DNA of 40,470 nt, from IMG/VR virus record IMGVR_UViG_3300025526_000061, positions 1-40,470 of that record. The stretch is one strand, 5' to 3'. Shown here in pieces: positions 3,001-39,859 of this stretch (the stretch's first letter is position 1; the number at the start of each line of letters is the position of its first letter). The notes under the pieces are model-generated. The model was given only the letters and a program-made list of their open reading frames with translations. It had not been told where the DNA came from and did no database searches. Position numbers and translations under genes: made by a program. The stretch is from a virus.

Positions 3001-3576
3001 GATCGTCCCGGGCCCGTAGCAGATCAGCAGCCGCAGCGCGCTGTCCAGGTCCCCCGTTTCGTTTTCCACCGGGATCCTCGACACGATGTGCCCGCCGTCC
3101 CGCTGGGTCTCGCCGAAGCGCGGCGGGATCACCGCACCCGCGAACCCGCCCCGCGCGACCCTCGAGTACCCGAACCGCTTCTCCTCGGGCGTGTCCTGGC
3201 TGTGCGCGCTGGGTAGCCCGATGCTGCTGATCATCAGCGCCGACGCGGCCGCCGACGCCACCGCGATGGCGATCATGATCCACGTGGCCGTCGTGATCTC
3301 GCCCATCCTGGGCGCGAGCTGCAGCTCCGCCCCATCCTTCAGCTCATCGAACTCACGCCCCGCCGGCACCGGGTGCCCATCCAGCACCATCATCAGCTGG
3401 TTGACGGCGTGCTCCGCGCGGCCAGCATCCTTGAACCACGCGTGGGCCGCGGCCGCGGCGATCGACGTCCCCTTCAGGAAGTCGTGGTGCTGCACCGTCC
3501 GCCCCGACTTGGTCAGCAGGTCCTCATAGCGGATCACCCGCACGTTCATCAGCCCCGGGTCGATCGCGTGCGTCAT
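1..3576 (-). CDS. Tail tip / host-specificity protein (gpJ-like, with gpI-like N-terminus)
   Basis: Predicted 1191-aa central tail-tip protein, which should contact the host surface and nucleate tail assembly. Residues 1-95 look like the beta-grasp part of lambda gpI, followed by a strongly hydrophobic segment at about 98-120; the remainder resembles the gpJ family. Two fibronectin-III-like domains lie past the middle, the first starting near APGPVENLTATEV and the second near NPALAAPASASL. The ATG at 3576 gives an ATGA overlap with the upstream peptidase gene; a longer reading to 3615 would run back through that gene and is rejected. The stop codon is the first three bases of the window. Gene order (L-like, NlpC, this gene) matches lambda L-K-I-J. 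Family-level call is firm; the I/J fusion is inferred from length and order. Confidence 0.82.
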   Translation of the reverse strand: MTHAIDPGLMNVRVIRYEDLLTKSGRTVQHHDFLKGTSIAAAAAHAWFKDAGRAEHAVNQLMMVLDGHPVPAGREFDELKDGAELQLAPRMGEITTATWIMIAIAVASAAASALMISSIGLPSAHSQDTPEEKRFGYSRVARGGFAGAVIPPRFGETQRDGGHIVSRIPVENETGDLDSALRLLICYGPGTIDAIGNQSADFDDVAAEDLEDVFLNDQQINGYAGVRAWGRMGGAGQAVIPGFEDVEVLREVGVGGVELVNTDGAERTGTDASSEAFTFTTLNEVNAVRVRVRLPGGLYTTSGGGQVESQRVKWRARTRTADVGSGAGSWSAWRVVDITKAQQSEFISALRLDDLNGGVAARMDVQVERVSEDADSLLIADRLLWDTVAEVTYDDNNYEGFALLGLYIPASEQVTTEPTPAAKIRGLKVLRWDRASSPAAPVFTRAWSDAPAEIAMEVITNTVWGMGARYSLSNIDLAAMFECLEESDTLVSTTSGGTRRKFACNLKLEQERRLSEWLAIIGRCGRFSVLTVGSLFRFVIDKARETPVEVFTDGSIAVDQDGVAVFEVAYELGTGGINRANQMTVQFENEETQGRGDAITWPQVGELWLGGDDAEQVNNRSVRMEGVTNPEQVFDELVYMLKRERFLTKAVTFETTRPVVATQPGDRADVAMSLPGWGLASGRIESGSTSAALVLDRSVTLEDGVDYFVKLVHIADGLVEDRAIDMPAGTYTAGEALTLDTPLAAAPGTYSEYSLGAEDKVAKPFMCTSVRAVDTGGQRWEISGVEYDPQIYDREDYDVQLPDFSSLDAPTSAPGPVENLTATEVVVDGDTRVSLAWTQAAGDRFNTAWFKVYWRPAGTLGWIRYAEQVVSMSGTVVDVFDLDRAYEFTVIAVSTAGAAMSPDDDDAPIVAIAFGLSNPALAAPASASLTQTSGNVYTLGWTAVTGAAGYQVLFGGTVVGTVNGGAEDCLVVSRVAAGVTSIAGLELPPGRSCTFWVRSINATGRLSKAAAVVTLASPAVHVGHTVEATKVFALDSEGTLTNLVWEDSRLRLVDASIDGVYLGPEVDLTTLEARELTFRPGTCNDAEDLAIEDLDLTAPSLEADAWGIVSLGPPRIGMLMPPYTAAEGDAAQAWEFEVRTHNGSVWGSWVAKAPGTAVLGTFQQWQIRVTMRRNETPYRPGLKGLAVVVSH

Positions 3577-27746: not shown

Positions 27747-27870
27747 CCAGCACCTCCCTGCAAACCACCCGCGTCTGATTCAACAACCGCGGGCAGCGGA
27801 TTGGTTCTTCTGTGTTCCACGAAACCTTCACTGCATCGCGATCACCCCCTCTCTCAAAGCAACATCGCAA

Positions 27871-27944
<74 letters not shown>

Positions 27945-27984
27945 AACAACGGTCACGGGCTGAGTCCACCCGTGACGCGTGCAG

Positions 27985-29130: not shown

Positions 29131-29603
29131 GACTCCACCTTCCCATCGCGCGGTGCAATGCCCGCGGCCTTACGAAGGTCGCCGGCCAGCTCCGCCACTT
29201 CCGTTTTGATCTCGCCCAGCGACTTCACGACCTGCACCTCGAGGCGGTGCCGGCTCTCGCGCTCTTCGCGGACGAACGCCATCAACTCTTTCGACAGCTC
29301 GCTGAACCGCGCGGCCTGGCGCGACTCGACCGCCGCCAGCTTGTCATTGACGTCCTGCCGGATGCCCCCGACCTCATCGCTCAGCTCGTTGTGGTCAGCC
29401 CGCAGCTGGTTGTGGTCATGCCGCAGACCCTTCTGCGACCGCTCCCGCGCCCCGTCGCCGCGGGCCCACTTCACCACCGGGGCGACGATGGCGATGGCGC
29501 CCACCACGATCCCCACCGCCGTGGCAATCCACGCCAGGCTGGGGGCACCAGGTTCACCCCCGCCCCCCTCCGCGATCACGATTGCAGCCAGCAGAAGTCC
29601 CAA
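29127..29603 (-). CDS. Membrane-anchored coiled-coil protein, inner-membrane spanin candidate
   Basis: 158-aa protein with a hydrophobic segment at about 23-45 (LAWIATAVGIVVGAIAIVAP), then a basic region and a long heptad-rich helix (about 55-140, for example DVNDKLAAVESRQAARFSEL). The only in-frame start is a TTG at 29603 with a weak G-rich Shine-Dalgarno. It overlaps the lipoprotein gene by 4 bp. Architecture and pairing fit an Rz-type i-spanin; a membrane-tethered regulator cannot be excluded. Confidence 0.48.
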   Translation of the reverse strand: MGLLLAAIVIAEGGGGEPGAPSLAWIATAVGIVVGAIAIVAPVVKWARGDGARERSQKGLRHDHNQLRADHNELSDEVGGIRQDVNDKLAAVESRQAARFSELSKELMAFVREERESRHRLEVQVVKSLGEIKTEVAELAGDLRKAAGIAPRDGKVES

Positions 29604-29678
29604 CGCGCATCGCCCCCGCCCCCTTCAGCGAACCACCCGCGCGGGAACAACCGCGGGGTGCGCACTGGGGCCACTTGC

Positions 29679-29705
29679 GGCCGCTGGCGGACTAAACCAG
29701 CGGCC
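29679..29705 (-). terminator. 9-bp stem hairpin, possible terminator
   Basis: GGCCGCTGG at 29679-29687 pairs perfectly with CCAGCGGCC at 29697-29705 around a 9-base loop containing the TAG of the 29692-30048 open frame. It lacks a U-run. It separates the sparse segment from the spanin-like genes. Confidence 0.45.
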
Positions 29706-30048
29706 AATGCACGTCGGAGAGCCCGGACCATACCGCCGGCCCCGACTCTGTCAAACGCCATTCCCCCGCACCCTCGATTCCAGCCCCCCAGGGCCGATCC
29801 GCGAACCCCAACGCGCGGCACGATGACCAGGCTGCGCGTTCCCGAAACCACGAATCGCGAATCTCAACGCCCAAAAACCTGGCAAGCTCAACCCCCGTCG
29901 CCTTGTCGCCCTCATAAGGGGTGGGGGGGTCTGGTAGTACCTTGGAAAAAAAATCCCAGGTCCCCTCAGTGTCCTGAAAAATCTGGCAGCCTCGACCTCG
30001 AGTTTTTTTAGGGTCGCGTTTGGCGCGTCCCGAATCGCTCCCTGGCAC
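29692..30048 (-). CDS. Uncertain small open frame
   Basis: 118-residue frame from a GTG at 30048 without a good Shine-Dalgarno. It reads like protein in places (GTWDFFSKVLPDPPTPYEG, then EWRLTESGPAVW, which resembles the end of a winged-helix fold). Codon choice is far less GC-biased than in neighbouring genes, and part of it (VELARFLGVEIRDSW) is the translation of a dispersed repeat found between other genes. It may be a recent arrival, a remnant, or not a gene at all. Confidence 0.25.
   Translation of the reverse strand: MPGSDSGRAKRDPKKTRGRGCQIFQDTEGTWDFFSKVLPDPPTPYEGDKATGVELARFLGVEIRDSWFRERAAWSSCRALGFADRPWGAGIEGAGEWRLTESGPAVWSGLSDVHWPLV
29851..29881 (-). repeat. Dispersed repeat R2, copy in the sparse segment
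   Basis: Plus strand CGAATCGCGAATCTCAACGC followed by CCAAAAACCTG. Twenty-odd positions match the copy before the ParB-like gene. It is part of the uncertain frame 29692-30048. Confidence 0.55.
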
Positions 30049-30225
30049 GGCTGGAACGCGTTCCTATAGCCCTAGTCCAGGCTGCAGAACATCAGTGATG
30101 ATGGAGGGTGATCACGGATCATCCACGAAAGTCTGCGCCTAAGCGGCGTATACCGCGAACGCGTGCCAGCCGTGCGATCGGTTCTGTTTGGGTTGGTGGG
30201 CGGGGCGGAAGGGTGCCGCGCGGCC

Positions 30226-33643: not shown

Positions 33644-33667
33644 AACCACGAAACCAAACACGGCCGC
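33644..33667 (-). repeat. Dispersed repeat R2, copy next to hairpin H1
   Basis: AACCACGAAACCAAACACGGCC on the plus strand, a diverged member of the R2 family (consensus near AACCGCGAAMCWCAACGGCC). It overlaps the left arm of hairpin H1. Confidence 0.5.
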
Positions 33668-33692
33668 GGCGTTCCCGCCATCGCGGCCGTGT
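33658..33692 (-). terminator. GC hairpin H1 of the small-gene array
   Basis: ACACGGCCGCG at 33658-33668 pairs with CGCGGCCGTGT at 33682-33692, loop 13 bases. It starts 8 bases after the stop of the 33700-34086 gene. Sequence (GGCCGCGGCGTTCCC) is shared with hairpins at 34148-34173 and 34671-34704. Confidence 0.6.
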
Positions 33693-33699
33693 GGATCGA

Positions 33700-34086
33700 T
33701 CACACCTGGTGCGTGCCTTCAACACCGCGGGCCGCTCGTGCGTCCGTGCGTGACTTCAAGCACACCTGCGCCGCGCGGACGTGATAAAGGGCCTCTATGT
33801 TCTCGTTGCACGCGAACGCCCCAGCCTGGGCCGTGACCAGCCGATCCTCGAGGATGGCCAGGAACACCTCGTTGGTGACGCCGTTGATCCCATCAATCAC
33901 CGGCCCATTCTGAAAACGGATGTTGAGCCCAAACGACGGCGTCAACCCCACGCCGGCGACTTCCTTCCGCGGTCCGAACACGTCGTACCTGAACGGGATC
34001 CCGCCCGCGTTCTTCTCTTCACCGCTCGGCTGGATCTCGATCGCCGCATTGCACTCATTGACCTGGTGGCTCGTCAGTTTCCGCAT
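33700..34086 (-). CDS. Small phage protein with helical hairpin ending in RGVEGTH; possible sponge-type protein
   Basis: 128-aa protein starting MRKLTSHQVNECNAAIEIQ. Residues about 1-70 are a beta-like head with GLNIRFQNGPVIDGINGV. Residues about 72-128 form two helices with ILEDRLVTAQAGAFACNENI, then RTDARAARGVEGTHQV. This ending is one I associate with a widespread phage hypothetical family, and the helix-Cys-x-E-N-x-A-L-helix layout recalls the hairpin of Acb2/Tad1-type cyclic-nucleotide sponges; that link is from memory and not tested. The ATG is 8 bases after the GAGGAG in leader element A. It is followed by hairpin H1. Confidence 0.6.
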   Translation of the reverse strand: MRKLTSHQVNECNAAIEIQPSGEEKNAGGIPFRYDVFGPRKEVAGVGLTPSFGLNIRFQNGPVIDGINGVTNEVFLAILEDRLVTAQAGAFACNENIEALYHVRAAQVCLKSRTDARAARGVEGTHQV

Positions 34087-34094
34087 CGTCGATA

Positions 34095-34133
34095 CTCCTC
34101 AAACATCAGGGCGTCATTGCCCTGCAGGTTCCA
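34095..34133 (-). promoter_or_regulatory. Start-associated leader element, copy A
   Basis: 39-bp element immediately before the 33700-34086 gene. On the transcript it reads TGGAACCTGCAGG, then the hairpin CAGGGC-aatgac-GCCCTG (plus-strand 34107-34124), then ATGTTTGAGGAG carrying the Shine-Dalgarno. Copies B and C are the same length; copy D shares 30 bp. Placement 7-9 bases before a start codon in every case points to translational or transcriptional control. Confidence 0.8.
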
Positions 34134-34154
34134 ACCGCGAAACACAACGGCCGC
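34133..34154 (-). repeat. Dispersed repeat R2, copy adjoining leader A
   Basis: AACCGCGAAACACAACGGCC on the plus strand, identical over at least 22 bp with the copy at 34660-34681. It directly abuts leader element A and overlaps hairpin H2. Confidence 0.6.
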
Positions 34155-34173
34155 AGCGTTCCCACCGCGGCCG
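34148..34173 (-). terminator. GC hairpin H2 of the small-gene array
   Basis: CGGCCGC at 34148-34154 pairs with GCGGCCG at 34167-34173 around a 12-base loop. It follows the stop of the 46-aa gene by about 8 bases and precedes leader A. Confidence 0.5.
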
Positions 34174-34181
34174 CCTTGGGG

Positions 34182-34322
34182 TCATCCCTCGTCCGGCTCG
34201 CCATAAGTCATGCACAGGCCACAGCCGCACGGGCCTTCGTAACCCTCGGGGTGCTCAGTCATGCCGGTCGTTGCGGCGATTGCCTGCTGCTCATCCATCT
34301 GCTCGAGCTGTTGCTTTGTCAT
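34182..34322 (-). CDS. 46-aa Cys-rich orphan protein
   Basis: Short gene with ATG at 34322, 7 bases after the GAGGAG of leader element B. The protein begins MTKQQLEQMDEQQAIAAT and ends with GPCGCGLCMTYGEPDEG; three closely spaced cysteines could bind a metal. It is flanked by leader B upstream and hairpin H2 downstream, exactly like its neighbours, which is the main reason to accept so short a frame. No family recognised. Confidence 0.62.
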   Translation of the reverse strand: MTKQQLEQMDEQQAIAATTGMTEHPEGYEGPCGCGLCMTYGEPDEG

Positions 34323-34329
34323 CCCGCTG

Positions 34330-34368
34330 CTCCTCAAACATCAGGGCGTCATTGCCCTGCAGGTTCCA
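34330..34368 (-). promoter_or_regulatory. Start-associated leader element, copy B
   Basis: Identical over 39 bp to copy A. It begins directly after the TGA of the upstream gene (34369) and ends in GAGGAG, seven bases before the ATG of the 46-aa gene. The 6-bp hairpin is perfect. Confidence 0.8.
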
Positions 34369-34614
34369 TCACCGCTTTGCACGTTGCTTGAAGCGTTCCT
34401 TGACCGACGGGCAGAATGTGGATCCTGCCGCCGCGCGAACTCCAGCCACCGCACCAGGCCGCGAGCGTTCCACGTGCTCAACACGCTCCTCCAGCCCCAT
34501 GTTCCTGTTCCTCATCGCGTCATGCTCCGCCTGGGTGAGCTGCAGAAACTGCGACTTGTCCGGACGATTCAGAAGGTCGCTCAGCTTCACCACTTCACCC
34601 GTGTTCACGTTCAT
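34369..34614 (-). CDS. 81-aa orphan protein of the small-gene array
   Basis: ATG at 34614 is seven bases after the GAGGAG of leader C; an overlapping ATG at 34619 is out of frame and closes at once. The protein starts MNVNTGEVVKLSDLLNR, has a helical middle (QLTQAEHDAMRNRNMG) and a basic C-terminus (CPSVKERFKQRAKR). The stop is directly joined to leader B. No recognised family; nucleic-acid binding through the basic tail is only a guess. Confidence 0.62.
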   Translation of the reverse strand: MNVNTGEVVKLSDLLNRPDKSQFLQLTQAEHDAMRNRNMGLEERVEHVERSRPGAVAGVRAAAGSTFCPSVKERFKQRAKR

Positions 34615-34621
34615 CGCATTG

Positions 34622-34660
34622 CTCCTCAAACATCAGGGCGTCATTACCCTGCAGGTTCCA
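34622..34660 (-). promoter_or_regulatory. Start-associated leader element, copy C
   Basis: Differs from A and B at one base: on the plus strand ATTGCCCTG becomes ATTACCCTG, so the RNA stem has a U-G instead of a C-G closing pair and remains paired. GAGGAG ends seven bases before the ATG at 34614. Confidence 0.8.
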
Positions 34661-34681
34661 ACCGCGAAACACAACGGCCGC
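34660..34681 (-). repeat. Dispersed repeat R2, copy adjoining leader C
   Basis: Same sequence as the 34133-34154 copy, directly next to leader C and overlapping the arm of hairpin H3. Confidence 0.6.
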
Positions 34682-34704
34682 GGCGTTCCCACCGCGGCCG
34701 TTGT
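34671..34704 (-). terminator. GC hairpin H3 of the small-gene array
   Basis: Perfect 13-bp stem, ACAACGGCCGCGG at 34671-34683 and CCGCGGCCGTTGT at 34692-34704, with an 8-base loop CGTTCCCA. It follows the TAG of the 34712-34954 gene by 7 bases. The strongest hairpin of the three; no U-run follows. Confidence 0.65.
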
Positions 34705-34711
34705 CGATCGA

Positions 34712-34954
34712 CTACACGCGCGGCGGCCAGCTCCATCCACTCGTGCCGGCGGGCGCGTCAGCCGGCAGCTGCGACACCGACGTCGGCCGCAGCTGGCCGT
34801 CCTGCAGCGGGTAGCTGCCATCGTTCTGGACGCTGAGGTTCACGCACGTGTCGCTCCACACCTGCGTGATCACCGCCGGGTACCCACTGGGCTTCTGGGT
34901 GTTCCCGCTCGGCTGAAAAATCACGACCCTTCCAACACTCGGCTTCTGATCCAT
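34712..34954 (-). CDS. 80-aa phage protein with KOW/SH3-like pattern
   Basis: Starts MDQKPSVGRVVIFQPSGNT and continues with PAVITQVWSDTCVNLSVQND, a V-G-x-x-V-x-F then A-x-I-x-x-V-W-x-D-x-x-V-N-L pattern seen in many small phage proteins and suggestive of a small SH3-like barrel. The ATG at 54 in the 34901-34960 stretch follows a GGAGA in the modified end of leader D. It is terminated by hairpin H3. Function unknown. Confidence 0.65.
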   Translation of the reverse strand: MDQKPSVGRVVIFQPSGNTQKPSGYPAVITQVWSDTCVNLSVQNDGSYPLQDGQLRPTSVSQLPADAPAGTSGWSWPPRV

Positions 34955-34970
34955 CGCAAATCTCCACGAA

Positions 34971-35000
34971 CATCAGGGCGTCATTGCCCTGCAGGTTCCA
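34971..35000 (-). promoter_or_regulatory. Start-associated leader element, copy D
   Basis: Shares 30 exact bases with A and B including the hairpin; the Shine-Dalgarno end has diverged (GGAGA in place of GAGGAG). It begins directly after the TGA of the 35001-35309 gene, as copy B does for its upstream gene. Confidence 0.75.
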
Positions 35001-35309
35001 TCACCGCTGCCGACGTCCATCCGCGATCCCGCTGTGCGGACTGTGCGGCGCCTTCTCGGGGTCCGCTTCCCAGTTGGTTGGCTCGATGCCCATGGCCATC
35101 AGCAGCGCTACCGCGCGGTTCCGCAGTGCCACGCACTCTTGCGCGTTGTGCCGGATCCCGGGCAGCCTCCCGCCCTGGCACAACTGCTCAGCCAGGTCCT
35201 CGTACATCCTCGCGACCGCCACCAGCGAGTTGACCAACTCCATCGCCTCCATACCGGTGGGCTGTGTGAAAGTCAGCCCATCCGCACGCATCTCTTCCAA
35301 CGTCTTCAT
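35001..35309 (-). CDS. Hypothetical 102-aa helical protein
   Basis: ATG at 35309 overlaps the preceding stop by one base (TGATG) and has GGGAGG upstream. The sequence starts MKTLEEMRADGLTFTQPTG and consists mainly of helices (LVNSLVAVARMYEDLAEQL, then ECVALRNRAVALLMAMG). Its stop abuts leader D. No family recognised. Confidence 0.58.
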   Translation of the reverse strand: MKTLEEMRADGLTFTQPTGMEAMELVNSLVAVARMYEDLAEQLCQGGRLPGIRHNAQECVALRNRAVALLMAMGIEPTNWEADPEKAPHSPHSGIADGRRQR

Positions 35310-37201: not shown

Positions 37202-37233
37202 GCGAACCGCGAACCTCAACGCCGCAAAACCTG
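37202..37233 (-). repeat. Dispersed repeat R2, copy in the leader of the DUF4326 gene
   Basis: Plus strand GCGAACCGCGAACCTCAACG followed by CCGCAAAACCTG. It lies between the stop of the winged-helix gene at 37240 and the Shine-Dalgarno of the DUF4326 gene. Nearly the same sequence precedes the ParB-like gene. Confidence 0.6.
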
Positions 37234-39827: not shown

Positions 39828-39859
39828 GCGAACCGCGAACTCCAACGCCCAAAAACCTG
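39828..39859 (-). repeat. Dispersed repeat R2, copy in the leader of the ParB-like gene
   Basis: Plus strand GCGAACCGCGAACTCCAACG followed by CCCAAAAACCTG. Same place relative to the gene as the copy before the DUF4326 gene. The related copy at 29851-29881 is in the sparse segment. Confidence 0.6.

Follow-up and report, generated by a model that had tools for sequence, protein, structure and literature searches.

A repeated hairpin leader before small genes of a phage that probably infects planctomycete bacteria: a possible gene-start cassette

The window analysed here is the whole stretch of 40,470 bases from an IMG/VR virus record, with a G+C content of 68.5%; every gene predicted in it lies on the minus strand. 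It derives from a tailed phage, and encodes a GpJ-like tip protein, a tape-measure-like protein, an S49-capsid fusion, a GpA-type terminase, a ParB-like protein and a primase/helicase. An array of small genes (Table 1) separates the early genes from the primase, and in it a 38-nt leader, referred to below as element A, occurs four times, in part accompanied by a terminator-like hairpin (T) and an 18-nt motif (x). When the window was searched for known RNA families at gathering thresholds, only tRNA-Met was returned.

Table 1. Coordinates of the genes and sequence elements discussed in the text.
Feature	Position	Strand	Remarks
tRNA-Met (CAT) gene	27870-27945	-	in a 238-nt gap
Motif x	29795-29812	-	
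Motif x	29851-29868	-	
T hairpin 2	33658-33692	-	11-bp perfect stem; directly 3' of the Tad1 homologue, without A
Tad1 (Thoeris anti-defence 1) homologue	33700-34086	-	128 aa
A copy 1	34095-34132	-	GGAACC, CAGGGC-AATGAC-GCCCTG hairpin, GAGGAG Shine-Dalgarno (SD); 8 nt 5' of the ATG of the Tad1 homologue
Motif x copy 1	34131-34148	-	18 nt, GTTGTGTTTCGCGGTTGG; between T and A
T hairpin 1	34148-34173	-	CGGCCGCGG-loop-CTGCGGCCG, terminator-like; 3' of gene 34182-34322, joined to A copy 1
46-aa ORF	34182-34322	-	a gene in the syntenic array of prophage G951 is 60% identical over 30 aa
A copy 2	34330-34367	-	adjoins 34369-34614, whose stop codon lies in the shared block AGCGGTGATGG
81-aa ORF	34369-34614	-	no homologue found by search
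A copy 3	34622-34659	-	C-to-U in stem, G-U pair kept; 5' of 34369-34614
Motif x copy 3	34658-34675	-	18 nt; between T and A
T hairpin 3	34671-34704	-	13-bp perfect stem; 3' of gene 34712-34954, joined to A copy 3
80-aa ORF	34712-34954	-	PHROG 2293, E = 1.4e-11; homologues near the primase in prophages G867 (43%) and G1038 (46%)
A copy 4	34962-34999	-	ends in TTCGTGGAG, a weaker SD; adjoins the stop of 35001-35309; 5' of 34712-34954
102-aa ORF	35001-35309	-	5' of the array, without its own A; stop codon inside the block of A copy 4
Motif x	37203-37220	-	
Motif x	39829-39846	-	

The small genes, four in number, had originally been described as orphans, but at least three of them are not. The array closes with a Tad1 homologue: it matches Tad1 (PDB 8kbb) with E = 1.3e-7 over residues 56-127, the C-terminal half, and PHROG 2428 with E = 3.5e-23, and the Tad1 of SBSphiJ7 was recovered by tblastn. 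It is likely to be an anti-defence gene; gcADPR is among the signal nucleotides of Thoeris and CBASS systems that Tad1 sequesters (PMC12043709). Genes 34712-34954 and 34182-34322 both have homologues in related prophages. An origin of the array by gene duplication was considered and rejected, as the small genes show no paralogy, either in the window or in the related prophage G951.

Element A reads GGAACCTGCAGGG[C/T]AATGACGCCCTGATGTTTGAGGAG on the minus strand. All four predicted copies were confirmed there, three with the starts originally given; the fourth predicted start, 34971, lies inside the last copy. A search of the whole contig with the 26-nt core, allowing up to three mismatches, matched these four sites and no others, while the same search on 100 dinucleotide shuffles gave no match (none expected by chance). 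Every copy is sense-oriented, lies 5' of an ATG and ends, as predicted, at an SD (GAGGAG or GTGGAG) that stands 7-8 nt from that ATG (4/4), with a gap of 6 nt between hairpin and SD. The repeats are bounded by the SD on one side and by a stop codon or T on the other in all four cases; similarity ends at these points, and no coding sequence was found to be duplicated along with A. Two copies had been thought to start just after a stop codon. They do adjoin one, but the shared block AGCGGTGATGGAACC itself includes the upstream TGA. The element is confined to a single cluster in the non-structural small-gene region.

The hairpin of A comprises the 6-bp stem CAGGGC/GCCCTG and the 6-nt loop AATGAC. 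It forms in its mRNA context, where pair probabilities are 0.9-1.0 save for the outermost pair of copies 2 (0.23) and 4 (0.73). However, among random 39-mers from the contig 4.5% have a stem of at least 6 bp, as do about 2% of dinucleotide shuffles, so that the hairpin by itself is only a little out of the ordinary; it is the fourfold recurrence that chance cannot explain. The accessibility of the SD in the folded context ranges from 0.2 to 0.6, with no clear "exposing" effect. The stem change in copy 3 was offered in the original prediction as a sign of retained base pairing, and a G-U pair is indeed kept. However, this C-to-U is one transition among the 48 stem positions of an element known from four near-identical copies only, and a claim of stem compensation built on one substitution has no weight.

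Copies 1 and 3 of A sit in 79-nt repeats, 97% identical, which also include a T hairpin and motif x; copies 2 and 4 have no x. The T hairpin sequence is CGGCCGCGG TGGGAACG CCGCGGCCG. T3 folds at -35.6 kcal/mol (z-score -5.05), and T2 and T3 are set apart by a matched change, in which each arm has lost one base. Motif x (GTTGNGNTTCGCGGTTSG, up to one mismatch) occupies six sites in gaps of the contig against 0.01 expected. The copies at 37203 and 39829 lie in gaps of 55-61 nt 5' of a DUF4326 gene and the ParB-like gene, as part of a 39-45-nt repeat, CAGGTTTT(T)GCGGCGTTGAGGTTCGCGGTTCG. Another two fall within 29580-30225, a stretch of 646 nt that separates the primase from position 29579 and holds no confidently predicted gene.

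In the direction of transcription the order is gene 35001, A4, gene 34712, T3 with x, A3, gene 34369, A2, gene 34182, T1 with x, A1, the Tad1 homologue, T2 and the next gene. The units are accordingly A-gene-T, A-gene-A-gene-T and A-gene-T, such that every T-bounded unit opens with A, and the array reads, on this layout, as a set of moron-like units. A search of the array region, confined to sigma-70-like promoters, found none.

Outside the window, A was sought in several collections. In IMG/VR, the exact 24-mer had no match and a degenerate 18-mer had 30, single and chance-like; a pattern with a loose loop gave two, both attributable to chance. The nine matches of GCGGTTGGAACCTGCAGG in GTDB were unrelated, phage and plasmid records held no true match, and 400 genomes of the likely host order contained no copy of A with up to three mismatches. 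The T hairpin pattern, run against IMG/VR, retrieved only one coding segment, in five contigs. Nor was an A-like leader or hairpin present at the Tad1 homologues of 53 other viral contigs; we therefore rejected a leader linked to Tad1 and regard the element as belonging to the phage, not to the gene. Primase and terminase peptides identified no close relatives in IMG/VR. A profile search yielded 80 loci, all at 35% identity or less, which were used only for the survey of start repeats described below.

The terminase offers a route to the host. Full-length relatives (32-40% identity) occur in 6 of 163 genomes of one bacterial family, a family reached via the phylum of the MAG Planctomycetaceae bacterium UBA7805, and on this basis the virus probably infects planctomycete bacteria (Planctomycetota). 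A proteobacterial host, the phylum of a Rhizobium record, was not supported: none of 349 genomes held a terminase relative at E <= 1e-30. The peptidase-capsid protein, used as a further host probe, produced generic S49 matches only.

Several of the six terminase-bearing prophages are collinear with the window. Element A is absent from the related prophages, including G867, G1038 and G951, which carry homologues of gene 34712 or 34182. In G951, the closest terminase relative (40%), six consecutive genes of 75-82 aa, mutually non-homologous, lie just 5' of the primase (G951:C61, locus L230, 14772-16710). Each is preceded by GAACCC[C/T]TCCC, followed by an SD and the ATG; the motif is placed at the upstream stop, just after it or, in one copy, within the last codons before it. 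This 11-mer has nine matches (up to one mismatch) against 0.62 expected, and six of the nine fall in the array at a spacing of about 290 nt. Leaders 3 and 6 are near-identical and the others have diverged. The G951 leaders share the sequence block and the SD but no common hairpin, which weakens the view of the A hairpin as the conserved feature. At the corresponding primase-side place, G1038 and G867 have no start-motif repeat, and an array with a phage-specific start motif thus recurs in one of the three relatives examined there; directly 3' of the G867 homologue of gene 34712 is a CGGCCGCG...CGCGGCCG hairpin. Leader arrays recur, then, but their sequence and hairpin are lineage-specific. The pentamer GAACC opens both A and the G951 motif; it may reflect common descent, a promoter part or chance.

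Among known systems, the start-associated sequences (SAS) of mycobacteriophages were named in the original prediction as a resemblance, with the proviso that the sequence differed. Both halves of that statement stand, the likeness being one of anatomy. In cluster K phages, SAS are 13-bp repeats at the SD, of unknown function, with inverted repeats (ESAS) upstream (PMC3203893; PMC12699233). The ESAS of Adephagia are thought to contain SigA-like promoters with an operator-like repeat (PMC11373665), and Microbacterium phages of cluster EF carry an analogous but unrelated repeat pair (PMC7302621). As in these phages, where the repeat stands 3-9 bp before the starts, A accompanies the SD of several genes that are non-homologous, non-structural and for the most part small, in one orientation and with the SD ending 7-8 nt before the ATG in all four copies, with an inverted repeat just upstream, an upstream stop codon sometimes within the repeat, and a consensus which differs between sub-lineages. 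No copy contains the 13-bp SAS consensus GGGATAGGAGCCC (from PMC3203893) within two mismatches, the copies reading GTTTGAGGAG or GTTCGTGGAG at that point. ESAS are 17-bp imperfect inverted repeats with a variable spacer, whereas A has a 6-bp perfect repeat and a fixed 6-nt loop, its hairpin and SD forming one invariant 38-nt block of unrelated sequence. Where SAS are conserved at the same gene families in relatives, the G951 motif differs at the same place. There are only four copies of A, in one cluster, some of them joined to a terminator-like hairpin, and the host is probably a member of the Planctomycetota rather than of the Actinobacteria. Given the mismatch in sequence and repeat length, we do not class A with SAS/ESAS despite the like anatomy.

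A second comparison is with PeSLs, the promoter early stem-loops of T4-like phages (Arbiol 2010; Comeau 2014). These reportedly mediate gene shuffling, according to work cited in PMC4503421. As far as that second-hand account goes, A and T resemble them in combining a repeated terminator-like stem-loop with a gene-start signal between small variable genes, for which gene shuffling is proposed; they differ in that A also occurs without T and that no early promoter was recognised, the search having covered sigma-70-like promoters only. The 17-bp dyad repeats of cluster O phages are likewise short inverted repeats, present in many intergenic gaps and linked to the gain or loss of small genes, but they are not tied to starts and about a third lie inside genes (PMC4351075). 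By analogy, the best reading is that A would work like SAS/ESAS and PeSLs, with a sequence unrelated to SAS.

We also surveyed 166 other loci (1.85 Mb) for repeats at gene starts. The use of longest-ORF starts gives this survey a low sensitivity, such that it misses the window itself; seven loci nonetheless had such a repeat at the starts of at least three genes. One family among them, AAAGGCACAAGAGAAATGA, stands at the starts of several small genes in several freshwater phage contigs (L062, L063, L082, L085, L087, L091 and L113). Like A, it is common to the starts of small genes and overlaps the upstream stop; unlike A, it is AT-rich, has neither a 6-bp hairpin nor a terminator module, and often doubles as the C-terminus of the upstream protein (FARAILRKAQEK stop). 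Repeats of this kind are therefore not peculiar to actinobacteriophages. A separate observation concerns contig L072 (IMGVR_UViG_3300046010_005008), in which several copies of AGCACTGCTGATGAGGCCTNANTGGCCGAAACCCCGGCGACGGGGTCCAGTGC lie near gene starts (e.g. 1314-1372 and 3181-3257) and are laid out like a hammerhead ribozyme (CUGAUGAG, GAAAC, GUC), scoring 22-24 bits with Rfam HH9, below the cut-off. L082 holds a repeat of similar appearance.

The explanation we favour, with a confidence slightly short of even, is that A is a phage-specific gene-start cassette: its hairpin and SD would exert their effect in the mRNA, and recombination between its copies would allow gene exchange. A would then be the standard leader and ribosome-binding site carried 5' of each short accessory gene, forming moron-like A-gene-T units together with the T hairpin. 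Acting at the RNA level, the stem-loop would fold locally, shield the leader from upstream sequence and mark where a compact initiation site begins on its 5' side, and any gene spliced in behind A would be translated in the same way; the loop could be bound by a protein of the phage or of the host. Homologous recombination between copies, conceivable because unrelated genes share 38-79 identical bases, would add, lose or swap genes and also keep the copies identical. Turnover of the A sequence between relatives would be expected, as the module is internal to the phage and any consensus would serve if all copies share it. As a related prophage has an equivalent array in the same position, built on another sequence, the array looks like the phage's standard plug-in for small genes rather than a one-off.

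The main alternative, though one we hold in some doubt, is that A, or x and A together, forms a promoter-operator from which each unit is transcribed separately, the inverted repeat CAGGGC-N6-GCCCTG being the DNA site of a dimeric regulator. The GAACC start of A and of the G951 leaders, which may recall ECF -35 elements, would suit this reading, as would the recurrence of x in other gaps of the contig. T hairpins stand 5' of two A copies, and the genes downstream would need a new start; if T terminates, x or A must hold a promoter. For the ESAS of Adephagia, such a regulator site has been proposed, paired with a SigA-like promoter (PMC11373665). Set against this are the lack of a sigma-70-like promoter in the region, the anchoring of the block to the SD and not to a -10 box, the broken half-site symmetry of copy 3 and the missing x of copies 2 and 4.

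It seems improbable that the copies are mere traces of recombination, in which a leader was duplicated during gene gain, kept alike by gene conversion and has no role beyond that of an ordinary SD. The 79 nt, T included, common to copies 1 and 3 would be explained in this way, and so would the near-identity of G951 leaders 3 and 6 amid diverged ones and the gene-start repeats that the survey met in several unrelated phage contigs. Such traces would hardly be delimited by a stop codon (or T) and an SD in every copy, with no coding sequence duplicated alongside, or appear as independent arrays at the same place in two phages. Finally, it is very improbable that A is a coding sequence, either decayed or overlapping, whose frame (GWNLQGNDALMFEE) resembles part of an HNH nuclease. 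In favour of this, 29 nt match the HNH gene of PAJU2 at 90% by blastn, and of the four differences between copies three are synonymous in that frame. Against it stand E-values of 0.3 (blastn) and 0.3-3.6 (tblastn) and peptides without a Pfam or PHROG match at E up to 10, and an HNH-gene relic was rejected as a chance match.

Beyond this phage, a broader and rather unlikely proposition extends the gene-start cassette to a whole group: the phages of one Planctomycetota family would keep a primase-side cassette array, with a lineage-specific start module copied to each captured gene. If true, this would amount to a standing plug-in system in which the recognition sequence changes between phages while place and layout persist, and short accessory genes, anti-defence genes among them, would be captured and exchanged in the primase-side array. 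Start-associated repeats have so far been described mainly in actinobacteriophages. The occurrence of the unrelated A in a phage of another phylum, together with a second, lineage-specific version in the same position of a related prophage, suggests a recurrent phage strategy of repeated start modules running arrays of small swappable genes. In view of the Tad1 homologue within the array, such arrays are useful pointers to anti-defence genes yet to be discovered in Planctomycetota phages.
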